64,000 nt of DNA from Luteibacter rhizovicinus (GTDB taxonomy: Bacteria; Pseudomonadota; Gammaproteobacteria; Xanthomonadales; Rhodanobacteraceae), in the NCBI RefSeq assembly GCF_004342265.1, contig NZ_SMCS01000004.1, positions 248,001 to 312,000 of the forward strand, written 5' to 3'. Below are positions 45,376 through 58,705 of this stretch, piece after piece (position 1 is the stretch's first letter; the number at the start of each line of letters is the position of its first letter). The notes under the pieces are model-generated. The model made no database searches, had not been told where the DNA came from, and saw nothing but the letters and a program-made list of their open reading frames with translations. The translations under genes and the position numbers were made by a program.

Positions 45376-45673
45376 CCAACGGCACGTAGGCAGCTACCGG
45401 TCAAGGCCTTAGACTTGTCGGGGAACCAACACGTAGATGTGTTGTCTGAGGCGGCAATCGATGTGCGTCATGGGCATGTCTTTCGAAGTCCCTACGCTAC
45501 AATGTCGAAAGATAAGTCTAAGGTTTGCCGCGCACTATCCGCTCGTCCCACAAGACGAACGAAGCCCATGTGCCGGCACGTTAAAATTCCAGTGATCGGA
45601 TGGCGGGAGTGGACAGTGTCGTCTACTCGCACGGGCTTACCTTCTGACTGGCCGTATACGATCATGGGCCGTG
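45376..45673. other. 298-nt structured AT-richer leader upstream of the exporter operon
   Basis: A region noticeably lower in GC than its neighbours. It contains a 13-nt inverted repeat, CCTTAGACTTGTC at 45407-45419 and GATAAGTCTAAGG at 45511-45523 (12 of 13 matching). Inside it an 8-nt perfect pair, TCTTTCGA at 45479-45486 and TCGAAAGA at 45505-45512, flanks a TACAAT box (45498-45503) like a -10 element. A reading frame of 88 codons crosses it but does not look coding. It may hold the exporter promoter, a small RNA or an insertion remnant. Confidence 0.5.
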
Positions 45674-47077
45674 ATGACTAGACACTTCCTTGCCTGCGCC
45701 CTCGCGTCTTTCGCCGCTATGGCGGCTGGCTGCGCGGGGCTTGGCGTGAAGTATCCGCCGACGCCGCCCGAACTGCCGGCGCAATGGAGTGCGTTGCCGC
45801 CTCCGCCAGCGGCTACCGCGCCGGATCTGCACGGATGGTGGAAGGCATTCGGCGACCCCGCGCTCGACGCCGTCGTCGAGCGCGCGCTCAAAGACAACCT
45901 CGATGTCGCGCAAGCGGTCGAGCGTCTGCAGGCCGCACGCGGTCTCGATCATCATTCCGGCGATCGTTTTCTTCCCTCGCTGAAGGGGAAGACGGACGAC
46001 CTGTTCGATCCGGACGCCAGTGCGTCGTTCTTCGTCGCCGGGTTCGATTCGGTTTGGGAATTCGGTTTCTTCGGCCGTGCCACCGGTGCGGAGCGCGCCG
46101 CGCGCGGACAACTCCAGTCGAGCGTGGCCGAGGTGAAAGCCGCACGCGTTACGGTCATTGCCGAGGTGGTTCGCAACTGGGTCGAAATGCGCGCCGCGCA
46201 GCAGCGGGTCCGGCTGCTGACGGATCTGCGCGACGAACGAGCCAGGCGTGTCGATCTGGTCGAGACCCGCGCGAAGCTGCGCATGGCCTCGCCCGTCGAC
46301 GTCGCGAAGGCGCACGGCGAACTTGCCCGTGCCGAATCCGCGCTCATGGATCCCAAACAGGCATACGACACGGCATCCCGGCAGCTTGCGGTGCTGCTCG
46401 GCATGAACGCCCCGGATGCCGCATGGGAGACAGTTGCCGACGTCCCCCAGTTGGGCGACTGGAAACTCGATGGCGCACCGGCCGAGCTGCTGCGCACCCG
46501 GCCGGAAATCGCGAAGGCGGAAGCGGACGTCGTGCGTGCGGCGGGCGAGCTCGGGCTCGCTCGCGCCGAGATGTATCCCAGCATCGGACTGGGCGCTTCG
46601 ATGATCTGGTCGACCAATATCGTCAGCTATCGCCGCACGCATACGCACGGCATCGCGTCCGTCGGCCCCGTTCTGGATATTCCGTTGTTCGACTGGGGCA
46701 TGCGCGCCGCCGCGGCGCACGCCAGCCGCCATCAGTTCCAGGCGACGGTGCTGGCCTATCGGCAAAGCGTCCTGCAAGGTGTCGCCGAAGTGCAGACCGC
46801 ACTCGACAATCTGCAGGCGCAGCGCGAGCGGGAGCGTCACAGTCTGGATGCCTGGCAGGCATCCACGGTGGCCGACAACGCCATGGCTACCCGGACGCGT
46901 CTGAAACTCGCGAGCGAACTGGATCGTGCGGATACCCGCGTCGCGGTGGCGGAAGCCGGCGTCGACATGGTGGATGCACGGGCAACCCGCGATCTTGCTT
47001 ATGTCGCGCTGTTCAAGGCGCTGGGAGGCGCTCCGGTAGTCGCGGATGAAGATAGCGACGCCGAGGCGGCGCGCTGA
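45674..47077 (+). CDS. TolC/NodT-like outer-membrane efflux lipoprotein
   Basis: A 467-residue outer-membrane factor for tripartite export. The signal peptide ends in the lipobox AAGC (Cys about 20), so it is lipid-anchored. Two repeats of long coiled-coil helices follow (LKDNLDVAQAVERLQAARG; LQAQRERERHSLDAW), with the NodT pattern LRTRPEIAKAEADVVRAAGELGLARAEMYPSI in separate blocks. It is the first gene of a four-gene operon with a permease, an ATPase and an adaptor. A GTG at 45671 is also in frame, but ATG 45674 is more usual. Confidence 0.93.
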   Translation: MTRHFLACALASFAAMAAGCAGLGVKYPPTPPELPAQWSALPPPPAATAPDLHGWWKAFGDPALDAVVERALKDNLDVAQAVERLQAARGLDHHSGDRFLPSLKGKTDDLFDPDASASFFVAGFDSVWEFGFFGRATGAERAARGQLQSSVAEVKAARVTVIAEVVRNWVEMRAAQQRVRLLTDLRDERARRVDLVETRAKLRMASPVDVAKAHGELARAESALMDPKQAYDTASRQLAVLLGMNAPDAAWETVADVPQLGDWKLDGAPAELLRTRPEIAKAEADVVRAAGELGLARAEMYPSIGLGASMIWSTNIVSYRRTHTHGIASVGPVLDIPLFDWGMRAAAAHASRHQFQATVLAYRQSVLQGVAEVQTALDNLQAQRERERHSLDAWQASTVADNAMATRTRLKLASELDRADTRVAVAEAGVDMVDARATRDLAYVALFKALGGAPVVADEDSDAEAAR

Positions 47078-48210
47078 TGGTTCCTCTCGCCCGCAAAACA
47101 CTTATCTACGAGTGGCGCCGTTTTCTGCCGGCGATTCTCGCCGTCGGCTTCGCCGGCCTGCTGCAGGTGCTGCAGGCGGCGCTCGTCCTTGGCATTTTCA
47201 GCAGCGCCAGTGTTTACATCACCGGATCGACCGCCGATATATGGGTGGGTTATCCGGGCACGCAAAGCGTTGACCAGGGGCGCTCGCTCGATCCCAACGT
47301 CGAAATGCATATGCGGATGGACCCCCACGTAACGCAGGTCGAGCCGTTCATCTGGCTGGATGGCGACTGGCGGGGCGACCGCACCACGGGTGGCGTATCG
47401 GTTTACGTGTCGGGAATCGATCCCCGTCCCGAAGGACTGATGTTCGCCCGCGTGCTGGACAAGGACATGCGCGCCCGTCTGGAAGAGCCGGACGCTGTCG
47501 TCGTCGACCGCGCGGACCTGGAGAAGCTCGGTGTCGGCGTAGGCAAGCAGGCCGCGATCAACGGGCATACGGTGCGCATTGTCGGTGTGAGTTCGGGCTT
47601 GCGCGCGCTGGGCGGGGTGAACGTCGTGACGTCGCTGGAAACGGCGCGCCGGCTGAACCCCGATCCACAGGATGCCGGTCGCCCGACGTATCTGGTAGCG
47701 AAGCTCGACGCGAACGCCGATACGAAATCGGTCGCCGCACGGCTACGGCATGCCACCGGCTTCGGTCCCTACGATGTCTGGGCGGCGCGCGATTTCGCGC
47801 GGCGAACGGTTCTCTACTGGATGCTGGATACAGGTGCCGGCGCGGGCGTGCTGTTCCTGGCGGGTATCGTCTTTCTGGTCGGTGCCGTCATCACCAGCCA
47901 GACGCTGGTCGCGGCGGTAGCCGGTTCCGTTCGCGAATACGCGACGCTCAACGCGCTAGGCGTAGGCTTGCCCGCACTGCGCCGGGTAGTGCTGGAGCAG
48001 GCGTTCTGGGTGGGCGCGCTGGGATTATTCGGCGCATCGTTCGTCGGGGCGCTGTTGATGGCGATCGCCCGAAGCCGCGACGTGCCCGTGTACCTCAGCA
48101 TACCTGTCACGTTGATATGCGCACTGCTCGTGATGGCGCTGGCCGCGGTGTCGGGTCTTGCCGCCATGCGCAGCCTGCGTCGCGCCGATCCCGCCACGTT
48201 GCTGAGGTGA
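47077..48210 (+). CDS. FtsX-like ABC exporter permease (MacB/DevC type)
   Basis: A 377-residue inner-membrane permease of the FtsX/MacB superfamily with four helices. TM1 is near 20-40 (FLPAILAVGFAGLLQVLQAALVLG). A large periplasmic domain follows (about 50-240). Three C-terminal helices (GVLFLAGIVFLVGAVITS; FWVGALGLFGASFVGALLMA; TLICALLVMALAAVSGLAA) complete it. The cytoplasmic motif REYATLNALGVG is typical of the family. It shares a base with the stop of the outer-membrane gene and is followed by the ATPase after 4 nt. Cargo is unknown; DevC homologues export glycolipids or small molecules. Confidence 0.9.
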   Translation: MVPLARKTLIYEWRRFLPAILAVGFAGLLQVLQAALVLGIFSSASVYITGSTADIWVGYPGTQSVDQGRSLDPNVEMHMRMDPHVTQVEPFIWLDGDWRGDRTTGGVSVYVSGIDPRPEGLMFARVLDKDMRARLEEPDAVVVDRADLEKLGVGVGKQAAINGHTVRIVGVSSGLRALGGVNVVTSLETARRLNPDPQDAGRPTYLVAKLDANADTKSVAARLRHATGFGPYDVWAARDFARRTVLYWMLDTGAGAGVLFLAGIVFLVGAVITSQTLVAAVAGSVREYATLNALGVGLPALRRVVLEQAFWVGALGLFGASFVGALLMAIARSRDVPVYLSIPVTLICALLVMALAAVSGLAAMRSLRRADPATLLR

Positions 48211-48214
48211 TGCC

Positions 48215-48979
48215 ATGAATTCACCTCTCGACAATAAGCGTTATGCCGGACCCAGCCTGAGGGCCGAACGGGTCACGAAGTCGTTCGTCACGGGACGCGT
48301 TCGCACGAGCGTCCTTCACGAAGTGTCGCTGGAACTTCATGCGGGCGAACTGACGCTGATTTCCGGGCCGTCCGGTTGCGGCAAGAGCACGTTGCTCGCG
48401 ATATTGAGCGGTCTGCAGAAGGTCGACTCCGGCGAGGTATTCGCCCTGGGCGACAAGCTGGACGACCTCGGGCAACGCGAGCTCGAACGGTTTCGCCTGG
48501 CCCACACCGGTTTCGTTTTTCAGGGTTTCAACCTATTCCCCGCGCTGACGGCGCTGGAGCAGGTGGAACTTCCGCTGCATTACCTGGGGCTGCCTTCGCG
48601 CGAAGTTCGCGAGCGGGCGCTTCGTTCGCTGGACGAAGTGGGCGTCGCTCATCGCGCTTCCCTGCGTCCGACCGAACTTTCGGGTGGCGAAAAGCAGCGC
48701 GTCGCGGTGGCCCGCGCCATGGCGAAAGAGCCCGAGCTGCTCTTCGCCGACGAGCCGACCAGCGCACTGGATGCCGCGAACGGGCAGATGGTGATCGATC
48801 TGCTTCATCGTATAGCGCGTACCCATGGCACCACGGTCCTGTGCGTCAGTCACGATCCTCGTCTTCTGGGTCACGCGGATCGCGTGCTCGCCATGGAAGA
48901 CGGGCGGATACTAAGCGATCAGCGCCACACGCCCGAACTGGCGCCGGGTCGCTCGAACCAGGAGATATCTTCGTTATGA
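48215..48979 (+). CDS. ABC transporter ATPase (LolD/MacB-type)
   Basis: A 254-residue ABC ATPase. Walker A is GPSGCGKST, the Q-loop is FVFQGFNLFPALTALEQVELPL, the signature is LSGGEKQRVAVARAM, and Walker B is LLFADEPTSALD. It powers the FtsX-like permease upstream. The C-terminus (ELAPGRSNQEISSL) extends beyond the core ATPase. Its stop overlaps the adaptor gene start by 4 nt. Confidence 0.94.
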   Translation: MNSPLDNKRYAGPSLRAERVTKSFVTGRVRTSVLHEVSLELHAGELTLISGPSGCGKSTLLAILSGLQKVDSGEVFALGDKLDDLGQRELERFRLAHTGFVFQGFNLFPALTALEQVELPLHYLGLPSREVRERALRSLDEVGVAHRASLRPTELSGGEKQRVAVARAMAKEPELLFADEPTSALDAANGQMVIDLLHRIARTHGTTVLCVSHDPRLLGHADRVLAMEDGRILSDQRHTPELAPGRSNQEISSL

Positions 48980-49887
48980 ACGCGATTGCAACGCACCGGA
49001 AGGCGTGCCTGATCCTGCTTTCGCTGGCCCTCGCGGCTTGTTCGGGGCATGGGAATGCACCCGCGACCGCAAGCGCGCCCGAATCGAACTACGCTGCGGC
49101 CGCGCGTGGCCGCGTCGACGTCGAAGGCGGACTGCTTTCGCTTTCGATGCCGCGCGACGGCGTACTCGTACGGATGGATGTGCACGAGGGCGACACCGTG
49201 AAGGCGGGGCAGGTCCTGGCCGCCCTCGACGACACGCCGGCGAAGCTTGCCGTCGCCGCGGCCGAAGCGGAACGTGCCCAGGCGAACGCGCAGATCGCCT
49301 CGCTGGGCAAGCGTATCGCGGCTGCGAAGCAGCGTGCGCAACGGCTTGCCCAGGCGGAAGCCAGCGGCGCCGGAGACGGGCAGAGCGCGGACGATGCGGC
49401 GGACGCACTGGTCCAGCTCGGCGCGGAACAGGATGCCGCCACGGCGCAGGTCGCCGTACTCGCCCAGAAAGTCAGCTCCGCAAACTACGAGCTTGCCCAG
49501 CGCACGCTACGCGCGCCCTCCAACGGACTGGTCACCCGGGTGCTGGCCCGTCCCGGCGCATCCGTGGGGACGGAGAATCCGCTCATCGTTCTGTTGCCCG
49601 ATACACCGCGTCTCGTTCGCGCCGAACTCAGCGAAACCTTTGCCAATAACGTGCAGCCGGGCATGCATGCGGAAGTCACGGCCGACGGCGATGCGAAAGC
49701 GACGCCGCGGCAGGCGACCGTCGTGCGTGTCGGTTCCGTGATCGGCCCCGGCGTTCTGGACGACGACGCGCAGGCACGGGCGAATTCGCGCACGGTGGAA
49801 TGCGTGTTGTCGTTCGATACGCCACAAGACCTTCGCATCGGGCAACGCGTGCTGGTGCGTTTCACGAAGCAGGGCGCGAAGCCCTGA
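48976..49887 (+). CDS. HlyD/MacA-like periplasmic adaptor lipoprotein
   Basis: A 303-residue membrane-fusion protein. The signal peptide ends in the lipobox LAAC (Cys22). A biotinyl-lipoyl-like domain (VDVHEGDTVKAGQVLAAL-type region), a coiled-coil hairpin rich in Ala and Gln (about 85-165) and a beta-barrel domain (RLVRAELSETFANNVQPGMHAEV) follow. It links the inner-membrane ABC complex with the TolC-like protein. The start overlaps the ATPase stop. Together the four genes make a complete tripartite exporter resembling DevBCA-TolC. Confidence 0.92.
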   Translation: MNAIATHRKACLILLSLALAACSGHGNAPATASAPESNYAAAARGRVDVEGGLLSLSMPRDGVLVRMDVHEGDTVKAGQVLAALDDTPAKLAVAAAEAERAQANAQIASLGKRIAAAKQRAQRLAQAEASGAGDGQSADDAADALVQLGAEQDAATAQVAVLAQKVSSANYELAQRTLRAPSNGLVTRVLARPGASVGTENPLIVLLPDTPRLVRAELSETFANNVQPGMHAEVTADGDAKATPRQATVVRVGSVIGPGVLDDDAQARANSRTVECVLSFDTPQDLRIGQRVLVRFTKQGAKP

Positions 49888-49906: not shown

Positions 49907-50674
49907 TCAGAAGTGGTAGACGAAGGCCAGCGTCTGCGAAATCTGGGTCCGCGATCCATACGAGCGGACCAGCGGGCTGTTTGCCGCGGCCCCCAGCAGG
50001 CGGCCAATATTGATCGACAGTGCGAAGCCCGTATGCTCGCTGGTGGGCAGGAAGGCGTCGTATTCGATATAGGCCATCTGTGCCCCGGCGCCCGGTCGCC
50101 ATGGCGCGGTTCCGATGCTCGTGGCCTCGTCGGCACTCAGGCCGAAGAAGCGCCGCATCGCCGGACCGTTCATCGCTTGCCATTGCAGCTCGAAGGACTG
50201 CTCGATATAGCCGATATCGGGTAGCTTCAGATCGCCGTAGACATCCAGGTACGCCCCCGCTCCGTCGGTGTCGTGGCTAACACGCGAGCCCACGCTCCAT
50301 TGCTCGTCGAACGCATATTCGATGTATCCGCCGCCCTGCAGCCGCGGCGAAAGCGACGTGACCTTGCCGCCGAGCGTACCCAGGTCTTCGTGGCTGCGGC
50401 CCCACATATAATTTCCGTACGGACCGCCATGCCAGTGCGTGCCGTGGATCAGATCGACGGTCAGGCCGTCGACCGTCGAAAGCTCGCCAATCTCCGGCAG
50501 GTCGATGTCCACATAGGGCAGGAGCTGGTTGCGATGGGTGCTGGCGCCGATCCAGGACGGAATGTGCTGCACGCCGGCCCCGAACGCGTAGCTGGGCGCC
50601 TCGCTGGCGGAAGCGATGCCCGATACGACTAGCAGGGCCATCGGGATTCCGGCGAGGAGGGAGCGAAGCGGCAT
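49907..50674 (-). CDS. MipA/OmpV-family outer-membrane protein
   Basis: A 255-residue outer-membrane beta-barrel. The signal peptide (PLRSLLAGIPMALLVVSGIASA) precedes a mature part with FGAGVQHIPSWIGASTH, GGYIEYAFDEQWSVGSRV and a terminal LAFVYHF, typical of the MipA/OmpV family (MltA-interacting protein). MipA links lytic transglycosylase and synthase in E. coli, but many homologues are porins of unknown role. I chose ATG 50674 because it starts right at the signal peptide; ATG 50710 adds 12 residues. It converges on the exporter operon 20 nt away. Confidence 0.8.
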   Translation of the reverse strand: MPLRSLLAGIPMALLVVSGIASASEAPSYAFGAGVQHIPSWIGASTHRNQLLPYVDIDLPEIGELSTVDGLTVDLIHGTHWHGGPYGNYMWGRSHEDLGTLGGKVTSLSPRLQGGGYIEYAFDEQWSVGSRVSHDTDGAGAYLDVYGDLKLPDIGYIEQSFELQWQAMNGPAMRRFFGLSADEATSIGTAPWRPGAGAQMAYIEYDAFLPTSEHTGFALSINIGRLLGAAANSPLVRSYGSRTQISQTLAFVYHF

Positions 50675-50821
50675 GGGCACGGATATGGGGGGTGATCGGG
50701 CGGAAATCATAGTCGGACAAAGTGAACGGGAGCCTCCTTAGGGGAACCTTCGGCCACTGGGAAAGGGGTGCGAAAGGTACCGTCCCTAACCTGCCGTCAA
50801 CCCTGATGGTGGACTTCCTAC

Positions 50822-51526
50822 GTGAATCATTCGGTTTCCTGGAACATTCTCTGCGACTTCGACGGCACGATTACCGTCGAGGACGTGATCGATTCGCTGC
50901 TCGACCGCTTCGGCCGTCCCGGTTGGGAAGTGCTCGAGCGCGACTGGCGCGCGGGCCGCATCGGTTCGGCTGAGTGCATGGCCGGGCAGGTCGGTCTTCT
51001 CGACGTCAGCCGCGAGGAAATGGACGCGCATCTCGACGGACTGCATATCGACCATGGCTTTCCGGCGTTCGTCGGTCAGGCGAAGCGTCTTGGCATGCCC
51101 ATCCGTGTCGTCAGCGACGGGCTCGATTACGCCATCGATTCGATCCTGAGCCGTCATGGCCTCGATACGCTGCCGGTTGCCGCCAATCACCTGAACATGG
51201 CGGGCGAGCGCGAGTGGCGTCTGACGTCGCCGTTCCGCAAGCCGGACTGCCGTAGCGGTACCTGCAAGTGCGCCTGCGTTGCCGAAGCGCGCAGCGATGG
51301 CCGCAAGACGCTGTTGATCGGCGACGGCGCATCGGATTTCTGCGCCGCCGACACCGTCGATTTCGTGTTCGCCAAGAACCGTCTGATCGAACACTGCCGC
51401 GCCGCGGGTATTCCCTACGTGCCCATCGCCAGCTTCGACGAAGCGCTCGAGCTTCTGCCCGCGCTTGCTGACGGACGTCTCCCGCCCGAGATCGTCGTCC
51501 ACCCGATTTCCGCACTTACGACGTAA
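50822..51526 (+). CDS. HAD-superfamily phosphatase (MtnX-like)
   Basis: A 234-residue class IB HAD phosphatase. Motif I is CDFDGTIT (Asp12/Asp14), motif II RVVSDGLD, and motif IV GDGASDFCAA. Residues around 140-150 carry a Cys cluster CRSGTCKCAC, as in MtnX-type enzymes that dephosphorylate 2-hydroxy-3-keto-5-methylthiopentenyl-1-phosphate. No methionine-salvage gene is nearby, and a class III aminotransferase follows after 15 nt. The substrate is therefore more likely a phosphorylated alcohol or amino alcohol in that pathway. The start is GTG at 50822. Confidence 0.88.
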   Translation: MNHSVSWNILCDFDGTITVEDVIDSLLDRFGRPGWEVLERDWRAGRIGSAECMAGQVGLLDVSREEMDAHLDGLHIDHGFPAFVGQAKRLGMPIRVVSDGLDYAIDSILSRHGLDTLPVAANHLNMAGEREWRLTSPFRKPDCRSGTCKCACVAEARSDGRKTLLIGDGASDFCAADTVDFVFAKNRLIEHCRAAGIPYVPIASFDEALELLPALADGRLPPEIVVHPISALTT

Positions 51527-51541
51527 CAGGATTTCCCTCCC

Positions 51542-52945
51542 ATGAACGTTCTGACCAAGAACCCCAAGGTCGTCATCGACGACGCCCAGCTGCTCGTCGA
51601 CGAGGCGAAATACTGTTCGTTCGGCGACACCGTGCACTATGTCGATCCGCCGAAGATCTTCCGTCATGCGGAAGGCAGCTACATCTACGACAGCGAGGAC
51701 ATCCCCTTCCTCGACCTGCAGATGTGGTACTCGGCCGTGAACTTCGGTTACGGCAACAAGCGTCTTAATGATTGCCTGAAAGACCAGATCGACCTGCTTC
51801 CCCAGGTAGCCAGCCAGTACCTGCACCAGACAAAGATCGAGCTTGCCAAGACGATCGCGGTCGACGCGAAGTCGAAGTTCGGTCTGGACGGCCGCGTGCA
51901 TTTCAACGTCGGCGGTGCGCAGGCGGTGGAAGACTCGCTGAAGATCGTGCGTAATGCGCGTAACGGCAAGAGCCTGATGTTCGCGTTCGAAGGCGGCTAC
52001 CACGGCCGTACGCTGGGGGCGTCGTCCATCACGTCCAGCTACCGCTATCGCCGCCGCTTCGGCCACTTCGGCGAGCGCGCGATGTTTGTCCCGTTCCCGT
52101 ATCCGTTCCGTCGCCCGAAGGGTATGACGCCGGAAGAATACTCCGACGCCTGCGTACGCCAGTTCGAGCGTCTGTTCGAGACCGAATACAACGGCGTGTG
52201 GGATCCGAAAGCGGGGCAGGCCGAATACGCCGCGTTCTACGTCGAACCGATCCAGGGCACCGGTGGCTACGTCATCCCGCCGAAGAACTTCTTCATCGAT
52301 CTGAAGAAGGTGCTCGACAAATACGGCATCCTGATGGTCTGCGACGAAATCCAGATGGGTTTCTGGCGCACGGGCAAGCTCTGGTCGATCGAGAACTTCG
52401 GCGTGAATCCGGACATCATCGTCTTCGGCAAGGCGCTGACCAACGGCCTCAATCCGCTGTCCGGTCTGTGGGCGCGCGAAGAGCTGATCAATCCGACGAT
52501 CTTCCCGCCGGGTTCGACGCATTCGACGTTCAACTCCAATCCGCTCGGTACGGCGCTCGGTCTCGAAGTCATCAAGATGGGCTACGAGCTGGACTACGGC
52601 ACGAAGGTCGTGGAGAAGGGCAAGCACTTCCTCGATGGCCTGAAAGACCTGCAGAAGCGTCACAAGGAAATCGGCGACGTCGACGGCCTCGGTCTCGCGC
52701 TGCGTGCCGAAATCTGCACCGACGACGGCTTCACGCCGAACAAGGAACTGCTCGACCGCATGGTCGACATCGGCCTTGCCGGCGGCCTGGAGCACAACGG
52801 CAAGAAGATCGGTCTCGTGCTGGACGTGGGCGGCTGGTACAAGAACGTCATCACGTTCGCGCCGTCGCTCGACATCAGCCACGAAGAGATCGACCTGGCC
52901 ATCTCGCTGCTCGATCAGCTGCTGACCAAGGCCAAGCGCGCCTGA
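51542..52945 (+). CDS. Class III PLP-dependent aminotransferase
   Basis: A 467-residue class III (omega-amino acid) transaminase. The PLP-binding lysine is Lys297 in IIVFGKALTNG and the PLP-nitrogen acid is Asp268 in MVCDEIQMG. The active-site Gly/His motif is FEGGYHGRTLGA and PFREGGYHG-type glycine loop is present as EGGYHG. It resembles the 4-aminobutyrate/ornithine/lysine-6-aminotransferase group, but the particular substrate is not evident. It is cotranscribed with the HAD phosphatase and converges on the ketosynthase/ACP genes. Together with them it may make an amino-containing small molecule. Confidence 0.9.
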   Translation: MNVLTKNPKVVIDDAQLLVDEAKYCSFGDTVHYVDPPKIFRHAEGSYIYDSEDIPFLDLQMWYSAVNFGYGNKRLNDCLKDQIDLLPQVASQYLHQTKIELAKTIAVDAKSKFGLDGRVHFNVGGAQAVEDSLKIVRNARNGKSLMFAFEGGYHGRTLGASSITSSYRYRRRFGHFGERAMFVPFPYPFRRPKGMTPEEYSDACVRQFERLFETEYNGVWDPKAGQAEYAAFYVEPIQGTGGYVIPPKNFFIDLKKVLDKYGILMVCDEIQMGFWRTGKLWSIENFGVNPDIIVFGKALTNGLNPLSGLWAREELINPTIFPPGSTHSTFNSNPLGTALGLEVIKMGYELDYGTKVVEKGKHFLDGLKDLQKRHKEIGDVDGLGLALRAEICTDDGFTPNKELLDRMVDIGLAGGLEHNGKKIGLVLDVGGWYKNVITFAPSLDISHEEIDLAISLLDQLLTKAKRA

Positions 52946-52953
52946 TGGACCGG

Positions 52954-52989
52954 ACGGGTGGGTCGGGCGTTCACGCCCGGCCCACCCGT
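52954..52989. terminator. Hairpin between convergent aminotransferase and ketosynthase genes
   Basis: A 16-bp stem with one mismatch (ACGGGTGGGTCGGGCG / CGCCCGGCCCACCCGT), TTCA loop, in the 55-nt convergent gap. There is no T run, so it is a rho-independent terminator only in a loose sense; it could block read-through in both directions. Confidence 0.45.
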
Positions 52990-53000
52990 TGCCGTGGGCC

Positions 53001-54230
53001 TCAACGAGGCTCGCACACCGCAAGGACGGCATTCAGGCCGCCGAATGCGAATGAGTCGGACAGCGCCGCCCGCACGTGCATCACGCGGGCATCGTTGCGA
53101 ACGATATCCAGATCGCAGTCCGGATCGCTGTCGATGAAGTTGGCCGTGGGCGGTACGATGCCTTCCTTGATCGCCCCGATCGTCGCGATGAGTTCGAGTG
53201 CACCGGAGGCACCAAGCGCATGGCCATGCATCGATTTGGTCGAGGAAACACATATGTTCCGCGCGTGCGCACCCAGCGCCATGTGGAGTGCGCGGGTTTC
53301 CGTGACGTCGTTCGCCTGCGTGCCCGTGCCGTGCGCGTTGACGTAGTCGATCGCGGAGGGTTCCATGCCCGCATCGGCAAGCGCCGCGTGGATGGCTTGC
53401 GCGGCGCCGTTGGCGGAGGGAGCCACGATGTCGCCGGCATCCGAACTCATGCCTACGCCCGCGATCTCGGCAAGCACCGTCGCACCGCGTCGACGCGCAT
53501 GCTCGATGGATTCGAGTACGAACATGCCGGCGCCTTCGCCAAGCACCAGCCCGCGCCGCTGCTTGCAGAAGGGGCGGCAGGTATCGTCCGCGAGGATACG
53601 CATCGCTTCCCACGCACGAATGACTCCGAACGAGAGGCAGGCCTCCGTGCCGCCAGTCACGGCGACGTCGACCATGCCGCTGCGGATCATGCCGACGGCC
53701 TGGGCGATCGCGTGATTGGCCGATGCGCACGCGCTGGTCACCACGAAGGCGGGGCCGGACAGGCCGAATTCGATGCCGATGTGGCTCGCTGGAGCACTGG
53801 CCATGATGCGCACGATGCTCAGGGGATGGACGCGCTGTCCGTTGCCCTCGCCGTACAGGTGGCGACTCGTATCGTCGTGCGAGGTCTCGCCGCCGGCGCC
53901 CGTGCCGATGATCACCGCTGTGCGGGTGCGCAGCCCGTCGTCGAACGCGATGCCCGACTGGGCGACCGCTTCGCGCGATGCGAGCAGGGCGAACTGGGAT
54001 ATCCGGTCGAGCAGGGGAAGTACGTGAGGGTCGAAGTGCGACTCGGGCGTGAAGTCGGGAACCTGCGCCGCGATACGCGCGCGAAGTTCCGCCGAGCGGG
54101 GATGGACCAGCGGGCGGATGGCGGACTGGCCTGCCACCAGTCCACTCCACAATCGATCCGCTCCGATACCGAAGGCGCTTACCGCGCCCATGCCCGTGAT
54201 CGCCACACGGCCTTCCTGGATTGCTCGCAT
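53001..54230 (-). CDS. Beta-ketoacyl-ACP synthase (FabF/KAS II-like)
   Basis: A 409-residue condensing enzyme with an intact triad: Cys168 in TSACAS, His300 in NAHGTGT, and His335 in SMHGHALGASG. It differs from housekeeping FabF in surrounding motifs, and it is paired with its own ACP on the same strand, 56 nt upstream. This makes it a dedicated synthase for a secondary lipid or polyketide-like product rather than the main fatty-acid enzyme. It converges on the aminotransferase. Confidence 0.92.
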   Translation of the reverse strand: MRAIQEGRVAITGMGAVSAFGIGADRLWSGLVAGQSAIRPLVHPRSAELRARIAAQVPDFTPESHFDPHVLPLLDRISQFALLASREAVAQSGIAFDDGLRTRTAVIIGTGAGGETSHDDTSRHLYGEGNGQRVHPLSIVRIMASAPASHIGIEFGLSGPAFVVTSACASANHAIAQAVGMIRSGMVDVAVTGGTEACLSFGVIRAWEAMRILADDTCRPFCKQRRGLVLGEGAGMFVLESIEHARRRGATVLAEIAGVGMSSDAGDIVAPSANGAAQAIHAALADAGMEPSAIDYVNAHGTGTQANDVTETRALHMALGAHARNICVSSTKSMHGHALGASGALELIATIGAIKEGIVPPTANFIDSDPDCDLDIVRNDARVMHVRAALSDSFAFGGLNAVLAVCEPR

Positions 54231-54286
54231 CGCCTGACTCCCCGGCTGGTTTCGTTTCGCCTTGCGGCGCGGAGTGAACCGGATGA

Positions 54287-54550
54287 TCAGGCGGGGGGAG
54301 CGGCATCCTTGCGTGCCAGCGCTTCCCGCAGCGCACCGATCAGTCCTGCGACCGTGTCGCCGTCGAAGTTGGGATCGCGCTCGGGAAAGGTCACCTTGAA
54401 CTCTTCCTCGATGTCGAAAATCACCTCGATAGCGTCGAGGGATGTCACGCCCAGATCCTTCAACGTTGATTCGAGCGTGATGGTGGACCGGTCTATCTTC
54501 GCGTCGTTGGCGATGATATCGAATACCTTGCTTTCAATCGGATCGCTCAT
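54287..54550 (-). CDS. Acyl carrier protein
   Basis: An 87-residue acidic helical ACP. Ser37 in DLGVTSLDAIEVIF is the phosphopantetheine attachment site; the typical DSL is replaced by TSL. It is the only carrier protein in the window and precedes a ketosynthase on the same strand, so it is probably cognate to it. It is divergent from the FemAB-like gene with 90 nt between the two starts. Confidence 0.92.
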   Translation of the reverse strand: MSDPIESKVFDIIANDAKIDRSTITLESTLKDLGVTSLDAIEVIFDIEEEFKVTFPERDPNFDGDTVAGLIGALREALARKDAAPPA

Positions 54551-54640
54551 AGTCCCGACCTCCCCGTTGCCGCGAACCCCGGAGCCAAAACGGCATCCGG
54601 CTGGCGTGGCACCCCGAGTCTAAACGTAAAAAGCTTACGC

Positions 54641-55711
54641 ATGCCTTTCCTCAATCAACTCGAACCGGACAGCCTGCTCGGGCACTTCGACCGACACCCT
54701 CCCGTCGGCTTCGATACCCTGCGTTCGAAAGACGGCATGCCCCTGTTCGCGGCTCCGTTCGATCTGCTGACGACGGCCGATGATGCGTTGCGCCATCGCG
54801 TCCAGGGTTTGCCGTTGTATCGCTTCTGGTCGCGCCTGCTCCGGCCGCGTACGTGCTTCGCCGGAACGACCGTGACCGAGTACGCGGTGTTCCCCGCCGG
54901 AGCCGACCCCGCCGCGCTGGCCGCGGAGCTTCGATCGACTGTCGGACGGGCGCATACGCTGCTGGTGGTCAAGGACATTCCGCTCGGATCGCCGTTGCTC
55001 GATGCGTCGTCCAGCGACTGGTCGCAACGGTTCGTCGATGCCGCCGGGGCGGAGGGCTTCATCACCGTCGAAGGGCAGGCGCTTGCGTGGCTGCCGATCG
55101 ATTTCGCTTCGGCGGACGACTATCTGAGCCGGATGTCGGCGAGCCGGCGGAAGAATCTGCGTCGCAAGCTTCGTTCCCGCGACGAACTGGAGATCGAGGC
55201 GATACCCACGGGTACCGCTTTCGCCGATGAAGGTCTCGTCGAGCGTTTCTATGCGTTGTATTGCGAGGTTTACGCGCAAAGCGAAACGCATTTCGATCTG
55301 CTGACGCTCGATTTTTTCCGGGACGCATTTCAGGATGCGAACGGTGGCGGCGTGGTGTTCGTTTACCGCAAGGACGGCGAGACGATCGGATGGAATCTCT
55401 GCTACGAACACCAAGGCCGGCTGCTGGATAAGTACATCGGCTTCTCCTATCCCCGTGCACGCGACTACAACCTGTACTTCGTGAGCTGGATGCATAACCT
55501 CGAGTACGCCAGGCAACGAGGTCTTACGCACTATGTGGCAGGGTGGACCGATCCGGAAGTAAAGGCATCGCTGGGCGCGAGCTTTCATATGACGCGTCAC
55601 GCGGTATACATACGCAACCCTCTGCTCCGTTTCGTGCTCCGCCGCCTGGCGAAGCACTTCGAGAGCGACCGCCAGTGGCAGGAAAAGCACAATGCGTCCC
55701 GTCGTCCTTGA
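54641..55711 (+). CDS. FemAB/GNAT-like N-acyltransferase (DUF482-type)
   Basis: A 356-residue protein with the GNAT-like fold of the peptidoglycan-biosynthesis/FemAB-like (DUF482) family. The core has SASRRKNLRRKLRSRDELEIE (about 167-187), FYALYCEVYAQSETHFDLLT and GETIGWNLCYEHQGRLLDKYIG. The conserved motif is typical of proteins that transfer an acyl group from a carrier or CoA to an amine. It ends in a 20-nt overlap with the ureohydrolase-like gene. The substrates are unknown. The position opposite an ACP/ketosynthase pair suggests an acyl-ACP donor. That is inference. Confidence 0.75.
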   Translation: MPFLNQLEPDSLLGHFDRHPPVGFDTLRSKDGMPLFAAPFDLLTTADDALRHRVQGLPLYRFWSRLLRPRTCFAGTTVTEYAVFPAGADPAALAAELRSTVGRAHTLLVVKDIPLGSPLLDASSSDWSQRFVDAAGAEGFITVEGQALAWLPIDFASADDYLSRMSASRRKNLRRKLRSRDELEIEAIPTGTAFADEGLVERFYALYCEVYAQSETHFDLLTLDFFRDAFQDANGGGVVFVYRKDGETIGWNLCYEHQGRLLDKYIGFSYPRARDYNLYFVSWMHNLEYARQRGLTHYVAGWTDPEVKASLGASFHMTRHAVYIRNPLLRFVLRRLAKHFESDRQWQEKHNASRRP

Positions 55712-56570
55712 TATCGATGGTTCGGTCGGGCCGCTGGCCCGCCGGATCGTGCTGCCGCTGGAAGAGTGGCAGGAGTCGCTGCGCTTCGCCTGTTCGCTAG
55801 GGGCGCTGCGTCGTTTTCGCGAAACGCTGGATGCCACGTTGCCTGCCGATTTCGGCACCGTATTCACGGGCAGCGGAGACTTCCACCATCTTACCTGGCC
55901 GCTGATCGAGCGAGTCCCCGGCCGCGAGCCGTTCCAGGTCGTGGTATTCGACAACCATCCGGACAACATGCGCTTTCCGTTCGGCGTGCATTGCGGATCG
56001 TGGGTGCGCCGCGTTGCGATGTTTCCGCGCGTCACGCACGTCCATGTCGTCGGCATTACTTCGGGCGATATCGGGCGCAAGCACGCATGGGAGAACTATC
56101 TGGCCCCGTTGCGTGCGCGCAAACTCACGTACTGGTCGTCCGGTGTGGACACCGGTTGGGCGCAGCGCGTGGGACTTGGCCACGGATTCCGCAGCTTCGC
56201 CACGTCCGCCGACCTGGTGGCCGCTTTCGTCGACGAGCAGAAGGGTCGTAGCGATGCGACTTATCTGTCGATCGACAAGGACGTTTACGACGCATCCGTT
56301 GCGATGACGAACTGGGACCAGGGCACGCTGGACGAGGCGGGCGGCGAGGCGATGATCGACGCATTGCGCGGACGCATCGTGGGTAGCGACGTGACTGGCG
56401 AGATATCGCGTTATCGCTATAAGTCATGGTGGAAACGACGTCTGAGCGCGATGGACGGTCAGGAAGAAGTCGCCGAGGAAAGCCTCGCGGCATGGCAGGC
56501 GCAGCAGCACGCACTCAACGAACGCCTGCTGCTAGCCATCGCCCGCAATACCGCCAGCTCCGTGTTGTAG
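55692..56570 (+). CDS. Ureohydrolase-fold (arginase/agmatinase-like) protein
   Basis: A 292-residue protein with the dinuclear-metal signature of the arginase/agmatinase/HDAC superfamily: His65/His66 in GSGDFHHL, Asp87-x-His89-x-Asp91 in FDNHPDN, Asp195/Asp197 in LSIDKDVYD, and Glu237 in TGEIS. The canonical GGDHS and SxDxDxxDP motifs are altered, so substrate is unclear. It may remove a guanidino or acyl group from an amine. The start overlaps the FemAB-like gene by 20 nt. The stop codon lies inside the first arm of a REP-like repeat. No arginine-catabolism gene is adjacent. Confidence 0.75.
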   Translation: MRPVVLDIDGSVGPLARRIVLPLEEWQESLRFACSLGALRRFRETLDATLPADFGTVFTGSGDFHHLTWPLIERVPGREPFQVVVFDNHPDNMRFPFGVHCGSWVRRVAMFPRVTHVHVVGITSGDIGRKHAWENYLAPLRARKLTYWSSGVDTGWAQRVGLGHGFRSFATSADLVAAFVDEQKGRSDATYLSIDKDVYDASVAMTNWDQGTLDEAGGEAMIDALRGRIVGSDVTGEISRYRYKSWWKRRLSAMDGQEEVAEESLAAWQAQQHALNERLLLAIARNTASSVL

Positions 56571-56719: not shown

Positions 56720-57739
56720 TTACAGCCGTCCGATCAGGTACTGCACGATCAGGCTCGTCACCGCTACCGATGCCCATACGCCCAGTCCCAGCAGGATCGG
56801 GCGCGGGCCGGTCGACGCCATGCGCCGCAGGTCGGCCGACAGGCCGATCGAGGTCAGCGCCACGATGATCAGGCACTCGGCCGCGAAGTGAACCCAGGGT
56901 AGTGCGACCTCGGGAACCAGGCCTGCTGTGCGCACGGCCGAAGCGACCAGGAACCAGAGGATGAACCAGGGAAAGATGCTGCGCAGGCTGAAGTCGCTGC
57001 GGCCGCTGCGCTTTTCCTTCCAGCCGACGATCAGTGCGAGAACGAGACAGATGGGGATGATCAGCGTGGCGCGCGTGAGCTTGACGATGGTGGCGTAGTC
57101 GCCGGCGGCATGACTGAAACTGTAGCCCGCCGCGACGACCGACGAGGTGTCGTTGATCGCGGTGCCTGCCCACAGGCCGAAGCCGAGGTCGGACAGATGC
57201 AGCAGATGGCCGAGCGCGGGAAACAGCAGTACCGCTACCAGGTTGAAAAGGAAGATGGTCGAGATCGCGAACGCGGTGTCGTGCTCGTCGGGCTTGAGGA
57301 TGGGCACCACGGCGGCGATAGCCGAACCGCCGCAGATGGCGGTGCCCACGCCGATCAACAGGCGCAGCTTGTCGTGCACGCGCAGGACCTTGCCCAGGAC
57401 GAACGCGGAGATGCCGGCAGCGGCCACCGTGGTCACCGTGACCGACAGCGATTCGAGCCCGGTATGCGCCACCTGGGTCAGGCTCAGGCCGAAGCCAAGC
57501 GCGATGATCGACCACTGGAGGATCTGCTTCGACGCGAAACGGATGCCCGGCTGGAACGATGCGGCGGGCGGGGCGAAATGGCGCACGACCAGCCCGAGAA
57601 CGATGCCGAACACGGCGCCGCCCACCAGCGGCAGCAGTTTCCCCAGCCCGAAAGCGACGGCGGCGACGGCGAAAGCCAGGGCCAGGCCGGGAAGCTTGTT
57701 CTGAGCGGGAGGGATGGTGACGGTTTCGATGGCGGACAT
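56720..57739 (-). CDS. yeiH: YeiH-type (UPF0324) membrane protein
   Basis: A 339-residue inner-membrane protein with ten or eleven hydrophobic helices, belonging to the YeiH/UPF0324 family, proposed to export sulfonates or sulfate. Family features are ALGFGLSLTQV, GVGTAICGGSAIAA (central conserved motif) and WAGTAINDTSSVVAAGY. It is divergent from a YeiE-like LysR regulator across 90 nt, the arrangement seen in many proteobacteria. Confidence 0.9.
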   Translation of the reverse strand: MSAIETVTIPPAQNKLPGLALAFAVAAVAFGLGKLLPLVGGAVFGIVLGLVVRHFAPPAASFQPGIRFASKQILQWSIIALGFGLSLTQVAHTGLESLSVTVTTVAAAGISAFVLGKVLRVHDKLRLLIGVGTAICGGSAIAAVVPILKPDEHDTAFAISTIFLFNLVAVLLFPALGHLLHLSDLGFGLWAGTAINDTSSVVAAGYSFSHAAGDYATIVKLTRATLIIPICLVLALIVGWKEKRSGRSDFSLRSIFPWFILWFLVASAVRTAGLVPEVALPWVHFAAECLIIVALTSIGLSADLRRMASTGPRPILLGLGVWASVAVTSLIVQYLIGRL

Positions 57740-57785
57740 GAGGGTGGTTCCAGAGCGATGGCGCTATTTTCCGCTCCTGAAATCC

Positions 57786-57821
57786 ATAAGCATATTGAGT
57801 ATGTCTTATTCAGTGTATAAG
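57786..57821. promoter_or_regulatory. Three phased half-sites: candidate LysR operator for yeiH
   Basis: ATAAG (57786-57790), CTTAT (57805-57809) and ATAAG (57817-57821). The last two form a perfect 17-bp dyad, CTTAT-N7-ATAAG, the T-N11-A type of LysR box. It lies 8 nt before the LysR start and 46 nt from the yeiH start, in the shared control region. Confidence 0.6.
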
Positions 57822-57829
57822 AATGACTG

Positions 57830-58705
57830 ATGATAGGAATCAGCCCCCGCCAGCTCGAAGTCTTCGTGGCCATTGCCCTGGATGGCAGCGTTCGTGCGGC
57901 GGCCGAGCGTCTGTATCTCAGTCAGCCGGCCGCCAGCATGGCGCTGGCGGAGCTGGAGCGTCAGTTGGGTTCACCCTTGTTCGCTCGCGAGAAGGGCCGG
58001 CTGCGGCTCAACGCACGCGGCCGTGAACTGTTGCCGTTGGCGCAGGAGCTGATCGAACGCTTCGCGGAACTGGAGCGTCGCGCCGGCGATGCCAGTGCGG
58101 CGTTGAGTGGCGAACTTCGCGTCGGTGCGAGCAATACGGTCGGCAACTATCTGGTCGGCGATCTGCTCGGTCCGTTTGCGTCGGCGCATCCGGGGGTGTC
58201 ATTACGGCTTGGCGTCGCCAATACGGCGCGCATTGCCGAAGGCGTGCTGGATCATGCTTACGACGTCGGTTGCGTCGAAGGCCCGGTCACGCACCCTTCG
58301 CTGGACGTACGACCCTGGCGCGAAGACTGGCTGGCGGTATGCGTGCGTCCGGACCATCGTCTTGCGGGAAAACCGCGGCTGCGCCGCGAAGACTTCGCAG
58401 GCGAACGCTGGGTGCTGCGCGAACGCGGTTCGGCGACCCGTGCCATGAGCGAACGCGCACTGGCGGAACTGCCCGCCGGCACGACGGTCCTGGAGCTCGA
58501 TCAGTCCGAGGCGATCAAGCAGGCGGTGATCGCGGGATTGGGCATCGCCTGTCTTCCCGCTGTGGCGATCGGCGATGCCGTTGCGGCAGGGCGGTTAGCT
58601 GTACTCAAAACGCCGTTTCTGGATATGCGCCGGGTACTGTCGGTGGTGGTGCACCGGTCGCGTTATCGCGGGGCGCTGCTGGATGCGTTTCTGGGGATGC
58701 TGTAA
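57830..58705 (+). CDS. YeiE-like LysR-family regulator
   Basis: A 291-residue LysR protein. The winged helix covers residues 5-65 (PRQLEVFVAIALDGSVRAAAERLYLSQPAAS in separate blocks). The effector domain shows the CysB-like GELRVGASNTVGNYLVGDLLG (about 92-112). It is close to YeiE, which in E. coli controls yeiH and sulfite-related genes. Divergent position and a dyad upstream support control of yeiH. A REP-like repeat follows. Confidence 0.92.
   Translation: MIGISPRQLEVFVAIALDGSVRAAAERLYLSQPAASMALAELERQLGSPLFAREKGRLRLNARGRELLPLAQELIERFAELERRAGDASAALSGELRVGASNTVGNYLVGDLLGPFASAHPGVSLRLGVANTARIAEGVLDHAYDVGCVEGPVTHPSLDVRPWREDWLAVCVRPDHRLAGKPRLRREDFAGERWVLRERGSATRAMSERALAELPAGTTVLELDQSEAIKQAVIAGLGIACLPAVAIGDAVAAGRLAVLKTPFLDMRRVLSVVVHRSRYRGALLDAFLGML

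Follow-up and report, generated by a model that had tools for sequence, protein, structure and literature searches.

A conserved gene cluster in Luteibacter rhizovicinus with a proposed role in making an amine-bearing envelope lipid

The locus and its neighbours

The window analysed here is a stretch of 64,000 nucleotides of Luteibacter rhizovicinus (contig NZ_SMCS01000004.1, positions 248,001 to 312,000); coordinates below are those of the window. Six genes (HAD, AT, KS, ACP, FEM and URH) lie next to an exporter and an outer-membrane protein gene:

45671..47077, plus strand: NodT/TolC-family outer-membrane channel of the exporter (TIGR01845, 208.1 bits, just below the cut-off of 210.05)
47077..48210, plus strand: DevC-like FtsX/MacB permease (only NCBIfam match TIGR01185 DevC, E 7e-26)
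48215..48979, plus strand: DevA-like ABC ATPase (best NCBIfam match TIGR02982 DevA, E 7e-65)
48976..49887, plus strand: HlyD/DevB-like periplasmic adaptor (TIGR01730 RND_mfp best; DevB family E 4e-17)
49907..50710, minus strand: MipA/OmpV-family outer-membrane protein, divergent from HAD (PF06629, E 4e-22)
50761..50777, plus strand: direct repeat GAAAGG-N5-GAAAGG between MipA and HAD, 44 nt before the start of HAD
50822..51526, plus strand: HAD, a HAD-IB phosphatase of the MtnX-like superfamily, not MtnX itself (TIGR01489; motif CDFDGT at D12)
51542..52945, plus strand: AT, a PLP-dependent class III aminotransferase (PF00202, E 1.5e-69; K297)
53001..54230, minus strand: KS, a FabF-like beta-ketoacyl-ACP synthase, dedicated paralogue, accessory module (ketoacyl synthase, E 6e-47)
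54287..54550, minus strand: ACP, an acyl carrier protein, accessory module (PF00550, E 5.7e-11; S37)
54641..55711, plus strand: FEM, a FemAB/MprF-fold transferase of 356 aa (Acetyltransf_6, FemAB_like)
55692..56570, plus strand: URH, a ureohydrolase-fold metal hydrolase (Arginase, 28 bits; cut-off 22)

The six reading frames are intact at these positions, and the catalytic residues named in the initial annotation (C168, H300 and H335 of KS, S37 of ACP, K297 of AT, and the DxHxD and DxD motifs of URH) are all present. HAD and AT are 15 nt apart, KS and ACP 56 nt, and FEM and URH overlap by 20 nt.

HAD exceeds the cut-off of the superfamily model TIGR01489 (96.2 bits against 81.55) and falls short of both MtnX equivalog models in NCBIfam (TIGR03333, 78 of 303 bits; NF007103, 96.7 of 292), which rules out methionine salvage by MtnX as its role. 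An alignment of 60 AT sequences has 202 of 467 residues invariant. Among them is T240, at a position in EPxQGxxG that is occupied by Glu, Asp or Ala in the five best relatives of solved structure; on this evidence, AT is a very conserved separate subfamily of class III aminotransferases. With its Cys-His-His triad, KS passes the FabF-like KAS II subfamily model (NF005589, 403.9 bits against 387) and lies below the fabF equivalog cut-off (TIGR03150, 418.5 of 493.75 bits); at 39% identity to the best other KS of the same genome, it is ruled out as the housekeeping FabF.

Distribution, partner genes and a shared promoter repeat

The gene set extends beyond the six genes. In relatives it also includes an alpha/beta hydrolase (ABH) and a pair of ArnE/ArnF-like EamA proteins. 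A DegT aminotransferase, MipA, the DevCAB/TolC-like exporter and ACP-KS join it in some lineages, and two-component genes of the PmrA/QseB-like kind often adjoin ABH or HAD. The L. rhizovicinus genome itself carries a second locus in the order RR-HK-ABH-EamA-EamA-DegT.

Among 299 genomes of the order, URH is present in 74, AT in 79 and ABH in 83, and the ABH-positive genomes are exactly the union of the URH-positive and AT-positive ones (Fisher p 8e-53 to 4e-68 for co-occurrence, uncorrected for kinship). Because of this exact match, random neighbours were rejected as an explanation. The co-occurrence search suggested as a check in the initial annotation found a conserved cluster and no random scattering. 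In nine genomes AT and ABH are present but URH is missing, and in four URH and ABH occur where this AT is absent; the system is thus modular, and its forms cannot all share one chemistry. Within the genus, 13 of 14 genomes (that of the window included) have URH, as one copy each.

Gene content was compared in 40 URH-centred stretches selected from the 74 URH-positive genomes (three of them shortened by contig ends). FEM is present in all 40, AT in 30 (one of these, in L055, a distant relative of 354 bits only), HAD in 29, KS and ACP in 28 each and HK in 19; HlyD (21) and RR (23) were left unused, since unrelated proteins may be among those counted. There are 12 different arrangements, gene content included. 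In the stretches examined HAD adjoins AT, FEM adjoins URH, and ABH has two EamA genes next to it. FEM and URH go together. In addition to their joint presence in 40 of 40 stretches, a close FEM was not found in the nine genomes that have AT and ABH but no URH, where the best matches were broken fragments in one genome and a distant match of 103 bits in another. A search of genome contigs with one FEM protein returned three loci only.

The set is also found on plasmids of Rhizobium, Agrobacterium, Roseomonas and Xanthomonas, including many rhizobial and agrobacterial ones. In one search with 21 matches, five weak ones (E 4e-6 to 1e-3) were not counted as the system. In Alphaproteobacteria the same set forms single operons, in which MipA recurs as it does in relatives of L. 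rhizovicinus. Some of these operons hold a fatty acid desaturase, and some also a cyclopropane-fatty-acid synthase; such genes suggest that the product is an acyl lipid. Downstream of one operon lies a phosphoethanolamine-lipid A transferase gene.

The initial annotation treated the six genes as the unit, and this is not borne out: ABH is at least as constant and goes along with two EamA proteins, and ACP-KS is an accessory, optional module. The latter is absent from 8 of 13 other genomes of the genus, which rules it out as the core of the system, and was not found beside the alphaproteobacterial operons examined. The exporter is linked to the cluster in 17 of the 40 stretches and missing from 23; it may therefore just lie next to the system without belonging to it.

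The direct repeat upstream of HAD is probably a response-regulator box, judging from its recurrence in promoter regions. With at most one mismatch it occurs in 31 of 43 HAD upstream regions, compared to 10 of 1500 random 160-mers, and in a looser window at 38 of the 43; near ABH, again at one mismatch or fewer, it is found at 13 of 45 loci. In L. rhizovicinus the ABH promoter has the box with two mismatches and the RR promoter has no match (five mismatches). A search of 1.26 Mb gave 58 sites, against 1 to 5 for each of seven other spacers and 41 in the reversed sequence, and the box is not enriched across the L. rhizovicinus genome (13 sites versus 23 in a backward control). Since GGAAAGG, the repeat in extended form, reads almost the same backwards, these last two controls are not independent, and we relied on the other spacers and the random stretches instead; the invariance of the half-sites is circular, the sites having been chosen by match. 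Before HAD at 16 loci outside the order the box was not found (3 to 5 mismatches). PmrA has a TTAAG-type consensus, and a box of that type was found in none of 437 upstream regions scanned on one strand.

The FEM-URH pair and comparison with known systems

The Pfam matches of FEM are PF13480 (Acetyltransf_6, E 5e-15) and PF04339 (FemAB_like, E 9e-13) only, the classical FemAB model being absent from the result. Fold comparison gives a double-GNAT Fem/MprF fold, with the best matches among aminoacyl-tRNA-dependent transferases, including peptide synthases solved with streptothrisamine. From its modelled fold, FEM resembles aminoacyl-tRNA-dependent transferases more closely than acyl transferases, which makes doubtful both the transfer of acyl groups to amines assigned to it in the initial annotation and a chemistry centred on KS and ACP. 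The more general part of that annotation, an amine-bearing lipid or metabolite, is still the best general reading. Unlike the fold, the sequence profile of FEM does not link it to FemX/FemA or to the streptothrisamine-binding Sba18/Sbb17: against PDB sequences it gave no match, and then four at E 0.23 to 0.55 that were taken as chance. FEM also differs from the MprF/LpiA lysyl- and alanyl-phosphatidylglycerol synthases, with 10 to 15% identity in aligned parts and no fused membrane flippase domain. The flippase candidates here are separate genes, and AT, HAD, ABH and URH are additional.

URH belongs to the arginase/ureohydrolase superfamily by its Pfam Arginase match, its alpha/beta amidinohydrolase fold and its binuclear metal ligands. 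The ligands D87, H89, D91, D195 and D197 (in D87-N-H-P-D91 and D195-K-D197) are invariant in 30 sequences, that of the window included. URH is set apart from arginase, agmatinase and proclavaminate amidinohydrolase by its low identity to the solved chains listed (11 to 18%) and by conserved motifs of its own, GSGDxHH, HCGSW and NWDQG. It has no NCBIfam match, and a search of PDB sequences with URH alone gave nothing useful, nor was a PHROGs comparison informative.

The wider gene set is similar to the Arn system, which places L-Ara4N on lipid A and is controlled by PmrA/PmrB, in its ArnE/ArnF-like EamA pair, in a DegT protein that is sugar-aminotransferase-like as ArnB is, and in its PmrA/QseC-like two-component genes. 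However, ArnA, ArnC, ArnD and ArnT are not listed in ten annotated plasmid stretches, which have HAD, class III AT, ABH, FEM and URH instead, and the box is GAAAGG-N5-GAAAGG rather than TTAAG-type. The matches themselves lie below the curated cut-offs: ArnE, the best NCBIfam match of EamA1 (30.6 of 92 bits), and ArnF, also matched by EamA2 (24.8 of 99); PmrA, matched first by RR (210 of 330), and QseB (196 of 345); and QseC, then PmrB, matched by HK. The exporter of the window is similar to DevBCA-TolC, which exports heterocyst glycolipids in cyanobacteria, in that the permease matches DevC and the ATPase DevA, with KS and ACP genes nearby. It differs in its linkage to the cluster in fewer than half of the stretches and in its scores, which are below cut-off for DevC (91 of 290 bits), DevA (219 of 296) and the adaptor models as well; in Pfam the permease also matches MacB_PCD and FtsX. 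All of these likenesses to ArnE/F, DevCAB and PmrA/QseC therefore indicate superfamily kinship only.

Two other systems are partly alike. As described in the available excerpt of PMC11324152, the sphingolipid genes of Caulobacter (AcpR, CC_1154) likewise have a dedicated ACP close to a transferase and a PLP enzyme; in the present cluster the latter is of class III, not a serine palmitoyltransferase, and a dehydrogenase is absent among the recurrent genes. Some predicted tRNA-synthetase-like peptide operons, in the excerpted text of Biol Direct 2010 (PMC2922099), bring together arginase, PLP enzymes and ACP-linked enzymes with a ligase of the GNAT fold. Those operons are centred on methionyl-tRNA-synthetase paralogues, of which there are none among the recurrent genes here. 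Like the initial annotation, which knew of no matching pathway, our search of the literature on the gene set, its parts and its lipid chemistry found no published description of the set.

A proposed envelope system and its alternatives

We propose, with a probability of roughly 0.55, that the cluster is the biosynthetic half of a conserved, regulated envelope system that makes an amine-bearing lipid, the product and substrates being inferred. Envelope stress would act through the response regulator to induce the operons of HAD and of ABH. AT and HAD would make an amine-bearing head group, to which FEM, if its modelled fold is a guide, would attach an aminoacyl group or, less likely, a fatty acyl group. 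URH, as a putative metal-dependent enzyme of the amidinohydrolase type, would work with FEM and trim the product, e.g. by taking off a guanidino or amide group. ABH may act on the acyl part, with ACP-KS, where present, supplying a special acyl chain. The ArnE/ArnF-like EamA pair could then serve as the inner-membrane flippase for the lipid, with the DevCAB/TolC-like pump taking it outward; the outer envelope would thereby gain a cationic aminolipid. A more specific version, rather improbable as it stands, is that FEM, as a soluble enzyme, takes an amino acid (e.g. arginine) from tRNA and loads it onto an amine lipid made for this purpose, and that its arginase-fold partner converts the residue on the lipid (e.g. 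arginyl to ornithyl), before ArnE/ArnF-like flipping and DevCAB/TolC-like export. If true, URH would to our knowledge be the first lipid-acting arginase-type enzyme, and the pathway a third route to cationic envelope groups beside Arn and MprF. A serinol-type head group, a sphingolipid-type pathway and guanidine export were considered as ideas only.

The strongest competitor, which we hold to be a real though lesser possibility, is a narrowed form of the initial annotation's reading: FEM is an ordinary acyl-thioester-dependent N-acyltransferase, with ACP-KS or the housekeeping ACP acylating the AT/HAD amine to an N-acyl amine lipid without any tRNA. ACP and KS do lie between AT and FEM, both here and in 19 of the 40 stretches, PF13480 is named as an acetyltransferase domain, and Caulobacter ceramide, in the portion of PMC11324152 available, is formed with the help of a specialised ACP (AcpR, together with Spt) and, as a separate enzyme, the N-acyltransferase CC_1154. 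The fold matches of FEM and the optional nature of ACP-KS point the other way. The fold matches to peptide synthases solved with streptothrisamine could also be read as a sign of a secreted small molecule (a lipopeptide-like or aminoacylated antibiotic, or a signal) leaving through the DevCAB/TolC-like pump, with EamA as a drug/metabolite exporter. Both the exporter and ACP-KS adjoin the locus here, and VlmA, which belongs to an antibiotic pathway, is related to MprF (PMC2922099, in the excerpt available). We regard this as unlikely: a single-copy URH in nearly every genome of the genus and so many stretches without the exporter are more in keeping with a housekeeping trait of the envelope than with a variable secondary metabolite, and the desaturase and cyclopropane-fatty-acid synthase genes of rhizobial operons suit a lipid.

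It is also conceivable that the genes are unrelated neighbours, i.e. functional pairs that serve separate pathways. HAD-AT lies apart from FEM-URH in some genomes (L113, L114 and L116), and the ABH locus is apart in the genus of L. rhizovicinus. The presence sets match exactly, however, with 83 genomes as the union of 74 and 79, and the same set forms one joint operon in Alphaproteobacteria and recurs in 12 arrangements, which leaves this explanation very improbable.

An aminolipid has been reported in Luteibacter mycovicinus (PMC11165876), and an unidentified aminolipid together with aminophospholipids in Dyella thailandensis (PMC12789092), each as given in the excerpt available. None of the aminolipids reported for the family has been linked to these genes, and in the chemotaxonomic papers listed by a search on polar lipids such lipids occur in unrelated bacteria too. 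We know of no genes that have been assigned to them.

The GAAAGG-N5-GAAAGG box may mark the regulon of a PmrA/QseB-like regulator. URH may represent a new arginase-fold enzyme family linked to a transferase of the Fem/MprF fold; for lipids, we know of no precedent for such a pairing. Finally, the gene set, with URH in 74 of the 299 sampled genomes of the order and the set itself on many rhizobial and agrobacterial plasmids, provides a concrete candidate for the aminolipid genes of this family.

Composition of the gene set

The six open reading frames described in the initial annotation, encoding a phosphatase (HAD), a class III aminotransferase (AT), a ketosynthase (KS), an acyl carrier protein (ACP), a Fem/MprF-fold transferase (FEM) and a ureohydrolase-fold hydrolase (URH), are all present in the sequence in the order and on the strands reported. 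FEM and URH overlap by 20 nt as stated there, and none of the catalytic residues listed is missing. Treating the six genes as the whole unit, on the other hand, did not hold up, since relatives add further genes. We read 40 URH-centred stretches of about 20 kb, hand-picked for genus spread from the 74 URH-positive genomes of the Xanthomonadales, three of them shortened by contig ends. FEM was found in 40/40, AT in 30 (only a distant relative in one, L055), HAD in 29, and KS and ACP in 28 each; joining them were an alpha/beta hydrolase (ABH, 33), two ArnE/ArnF-like proteins (EamA, 32), a DegT aminotransferase (30), the DevC-like permease and NodT channel of an exporter (17 each) and a MipA/OmpV-family outer-membrane protein (MipA, 11). 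Counting gene content, the core genes take 12 arrangements, with ACP-KS in both orientations. A typical full set, on a Xanthomonas sacchari plasmid (L093), reads HAD, AT, (KS, ACP), FEM, URH, (DegT, EamA, EamA, ABH, HlyD, ATPase, permease, TolC, HK, RR), where brackets denote the opposite strand and RR/HK is a PmrA/QseB-like two-component pair. The window holds part of this surrounding set:

45671-49887: DevCAB/TolC-like exporter, a short way upstream of the six genes, as is MipA

ABH, EamA and DegT were not found in the 64-kb window, which spans positions 248001-312000 of contig C4 in the 4.47-Mb genome; they occur on another contig (C2, locus L103) as a consecutive RR-HK-ABH-EamA-EamA-DegT. 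Three same-genus genomes (G130, G154, G218) each carry two ABH copies at two places, and one stretch of G130 (L115) holds RR-HK-ABH alone.

Among the relatives found, the closest with a name is Luteibacter jiangsuensis (L078), whose FEM shows 63% identity. The genome encodes a second, canonical PF04339 (FemAB_like/DUF482) protein (G000:C5:1776-2873, L134), which scores 455 bits with that model; FEM scores only 48 bits and is thus a distant branch of the family. URH is adjoined (window 56720-58705) by genes for a transporter of the YeiH family and a LysR regulator resembling YeiE. Both recur near URH in six related loci (L038, L039, L040, L072, L073, L078) and are probably syntenic neighbours.

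Co-occurrence and distribution

A co-occurrence check of the kind proposed with the initial annotation, run over the order for URH, AT and ABH, bore out a conserved set. Of 299 genomes of the order, this one included, 74 carry URH, 79 an AT orthologue (E <= 1e-120) and 83 ABH (E <= 1e-50), the ABH genomes being exactly the union of the other two sets (Fisher p 8e-53 to 4e-68 for co-occurrence of the three, ignoring kinship). Four genomes have URH and ABH without the AT orthologue, and nine have AT and ABH without URH (0/9 by profile search). In these nine the FEM profile gave no close match: one has fragments, another a distant match of 103 bits, five score less than 41 bits and two gave nothing. 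The fragments, three separate matches at G227:C11:17386-18295, look like a FEM copy in decay, in keeping with a loss of FEM together with URH. From these sequence searches, FEM-URH looks to have been gained or lost as a pair.

ACP-KS is optional to the gene set. Of 13 other same-genus genomes sampled, five carry KS (G095, G287, G130, G154, G218) and eight yielded none at E <= 1e-90; AT is present in all eight and URH in seven. In L038 and similar neighbours HAD-AT-FEM-URH has no KS or ACP match in between, and the alphaproteobacterial operons read showed neither nearby. In G842, from another class, a 51% identical KS is located on a different contig.

The URH profile matched 4/369 genomes of a gammaproteobacterial sample (one weakly) and 21/398 of a Pseudomonadota sample, 16 strongly and five weakly (E 4e-6 to 1e-3); ten of the 16 lie outside the order (families f118, f171, f229). 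Among 72,556 plasmid records, the window URH matched 49 (19 with a coverage of 80% or more of the query) and a Phyllobacterium URH 47, mostly from Rhizobium, Roseomonas, Agrobacterium and Bartonella. Operons of Rhizobium, Agrobacterium, Sinorhizobium and Phyllobacterium read RR-HK-HAD-AT-URH-EamA-[desaturase]-ABH-FEM-EamA-[CFA synthase]-MipA, the bracketed genes occurring only in some. After one of these operons come genes for a phosphoethanolamine-lipid A transferase and for a diacylglycerol kinase, and one Agrobacterium plasmid has the exporter, not MipA, directly downstream. At the usual place of AT, next to HAD, Roseomonas and Aureimonas carry a class III enzyme resembling glutamate-semialdehyde aminomutase. 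Three loci of the Xanthomonadales (L051, L066, L067) show the gene order URH-EamA-ABH-FEM-EamA of the Alphaproteobacteria with ACP-KS added to it, thus joining the alphaproteobacterial and Xanthomonadales-type architectures. A plasmid of the bat-derived Bartonella sp. HY406 (L094) carries an AT-FEM-URH trio near an MBOAT O-acyltransferase gene, HAD not adjoining; URH occurs in four further Bartonella records.

A repeat upstream of HAD

When direct 6-mer repeats without mismatches were counted in the gene upstream regions at spacers 4, 5 and 6, GAAAGG/CCTTTC repeats emerged at spacer 5. At no more than one mismatch, the 1.256 Mb of loci contain 58 sites of GAAAGG-N5-GAAAGG, and 44 of these stand near HAD, ABH or MipA; each of seven other spacers gives 1-5 sites. 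By the same measure the repeat lies in 31/43 HAD upstream regions versus 10/1500 random stretches. An exact copy stands 44 nt ahead of HAD in the window (50761-50777). The ABH promoter of this genome holds GAAAGGTTAGTGAAACC (two mismatches), and versions with two to three mismatches occupy the same position in three other ABH promoters of the genus; a scan of this genome's RR promoter gave no repeat. Two other exact sites occur in the genome (G000:C5:56371-56387, G000:C7:40147-40163). Since the repeat is not rare genome-wide (13 sites versus 23 for a backward control) and was not seen in the HAD upstream regions of 16 loci outside the order, the case for this candidate shared control element rests on its position within the order.

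Known systems and proposed function

Each part belongs to a known superfamily. By NCBIfam, with all matches under curated cut-offs, the first EamA is closest to ArnE (30.6 bits) and the second to the 2A78 model of carboxylate/amine transporters, followed by ArnF; HK matches QseC, then PmrB; RR matches PmrA first; DegT matches the sugar aminotransferases WecE-like, DesI, PseC and ArnB; DevC is the sole match of the permease and DevA the first of the ATPase. We do not assign the set to Arn, MprF or DevBCA, since features tested for these systems were not borne out, and its PLP enzyme differs in kind from that of sphingolipid pathways. The initial annotation could identify no described pathway with this exact combination, and our literature searches on the set, its parts and its chemistry, which covered neither bioRxiv preprints nor the majority of subscription papers, returned no description. 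The nearest text is a 2010 prediction of different peptide operons with GNAT/ACP/arginase (PMC2922099).

What the analysis shows is the gene set, its co-occurrence, the folds, the intact catalytic residues and the shared repeat; beyond that, the likeliest reading is that the product is a lipid. Two reports describe an aminolipid in Luteibacter mycovicinus (PMC11165876) and an unidentified aminolipid with aminophospholipids in Dyella thailandensis (PMC12789092), which is consistent with a lipid without being specific to it. AT and HAD would supply the head group, FEM may add an aminoacyl decoration and URH may trim the product; EamA would then flip the lipid and the DevCAB/TolC-like pump export it, and envelope stress would control the system.
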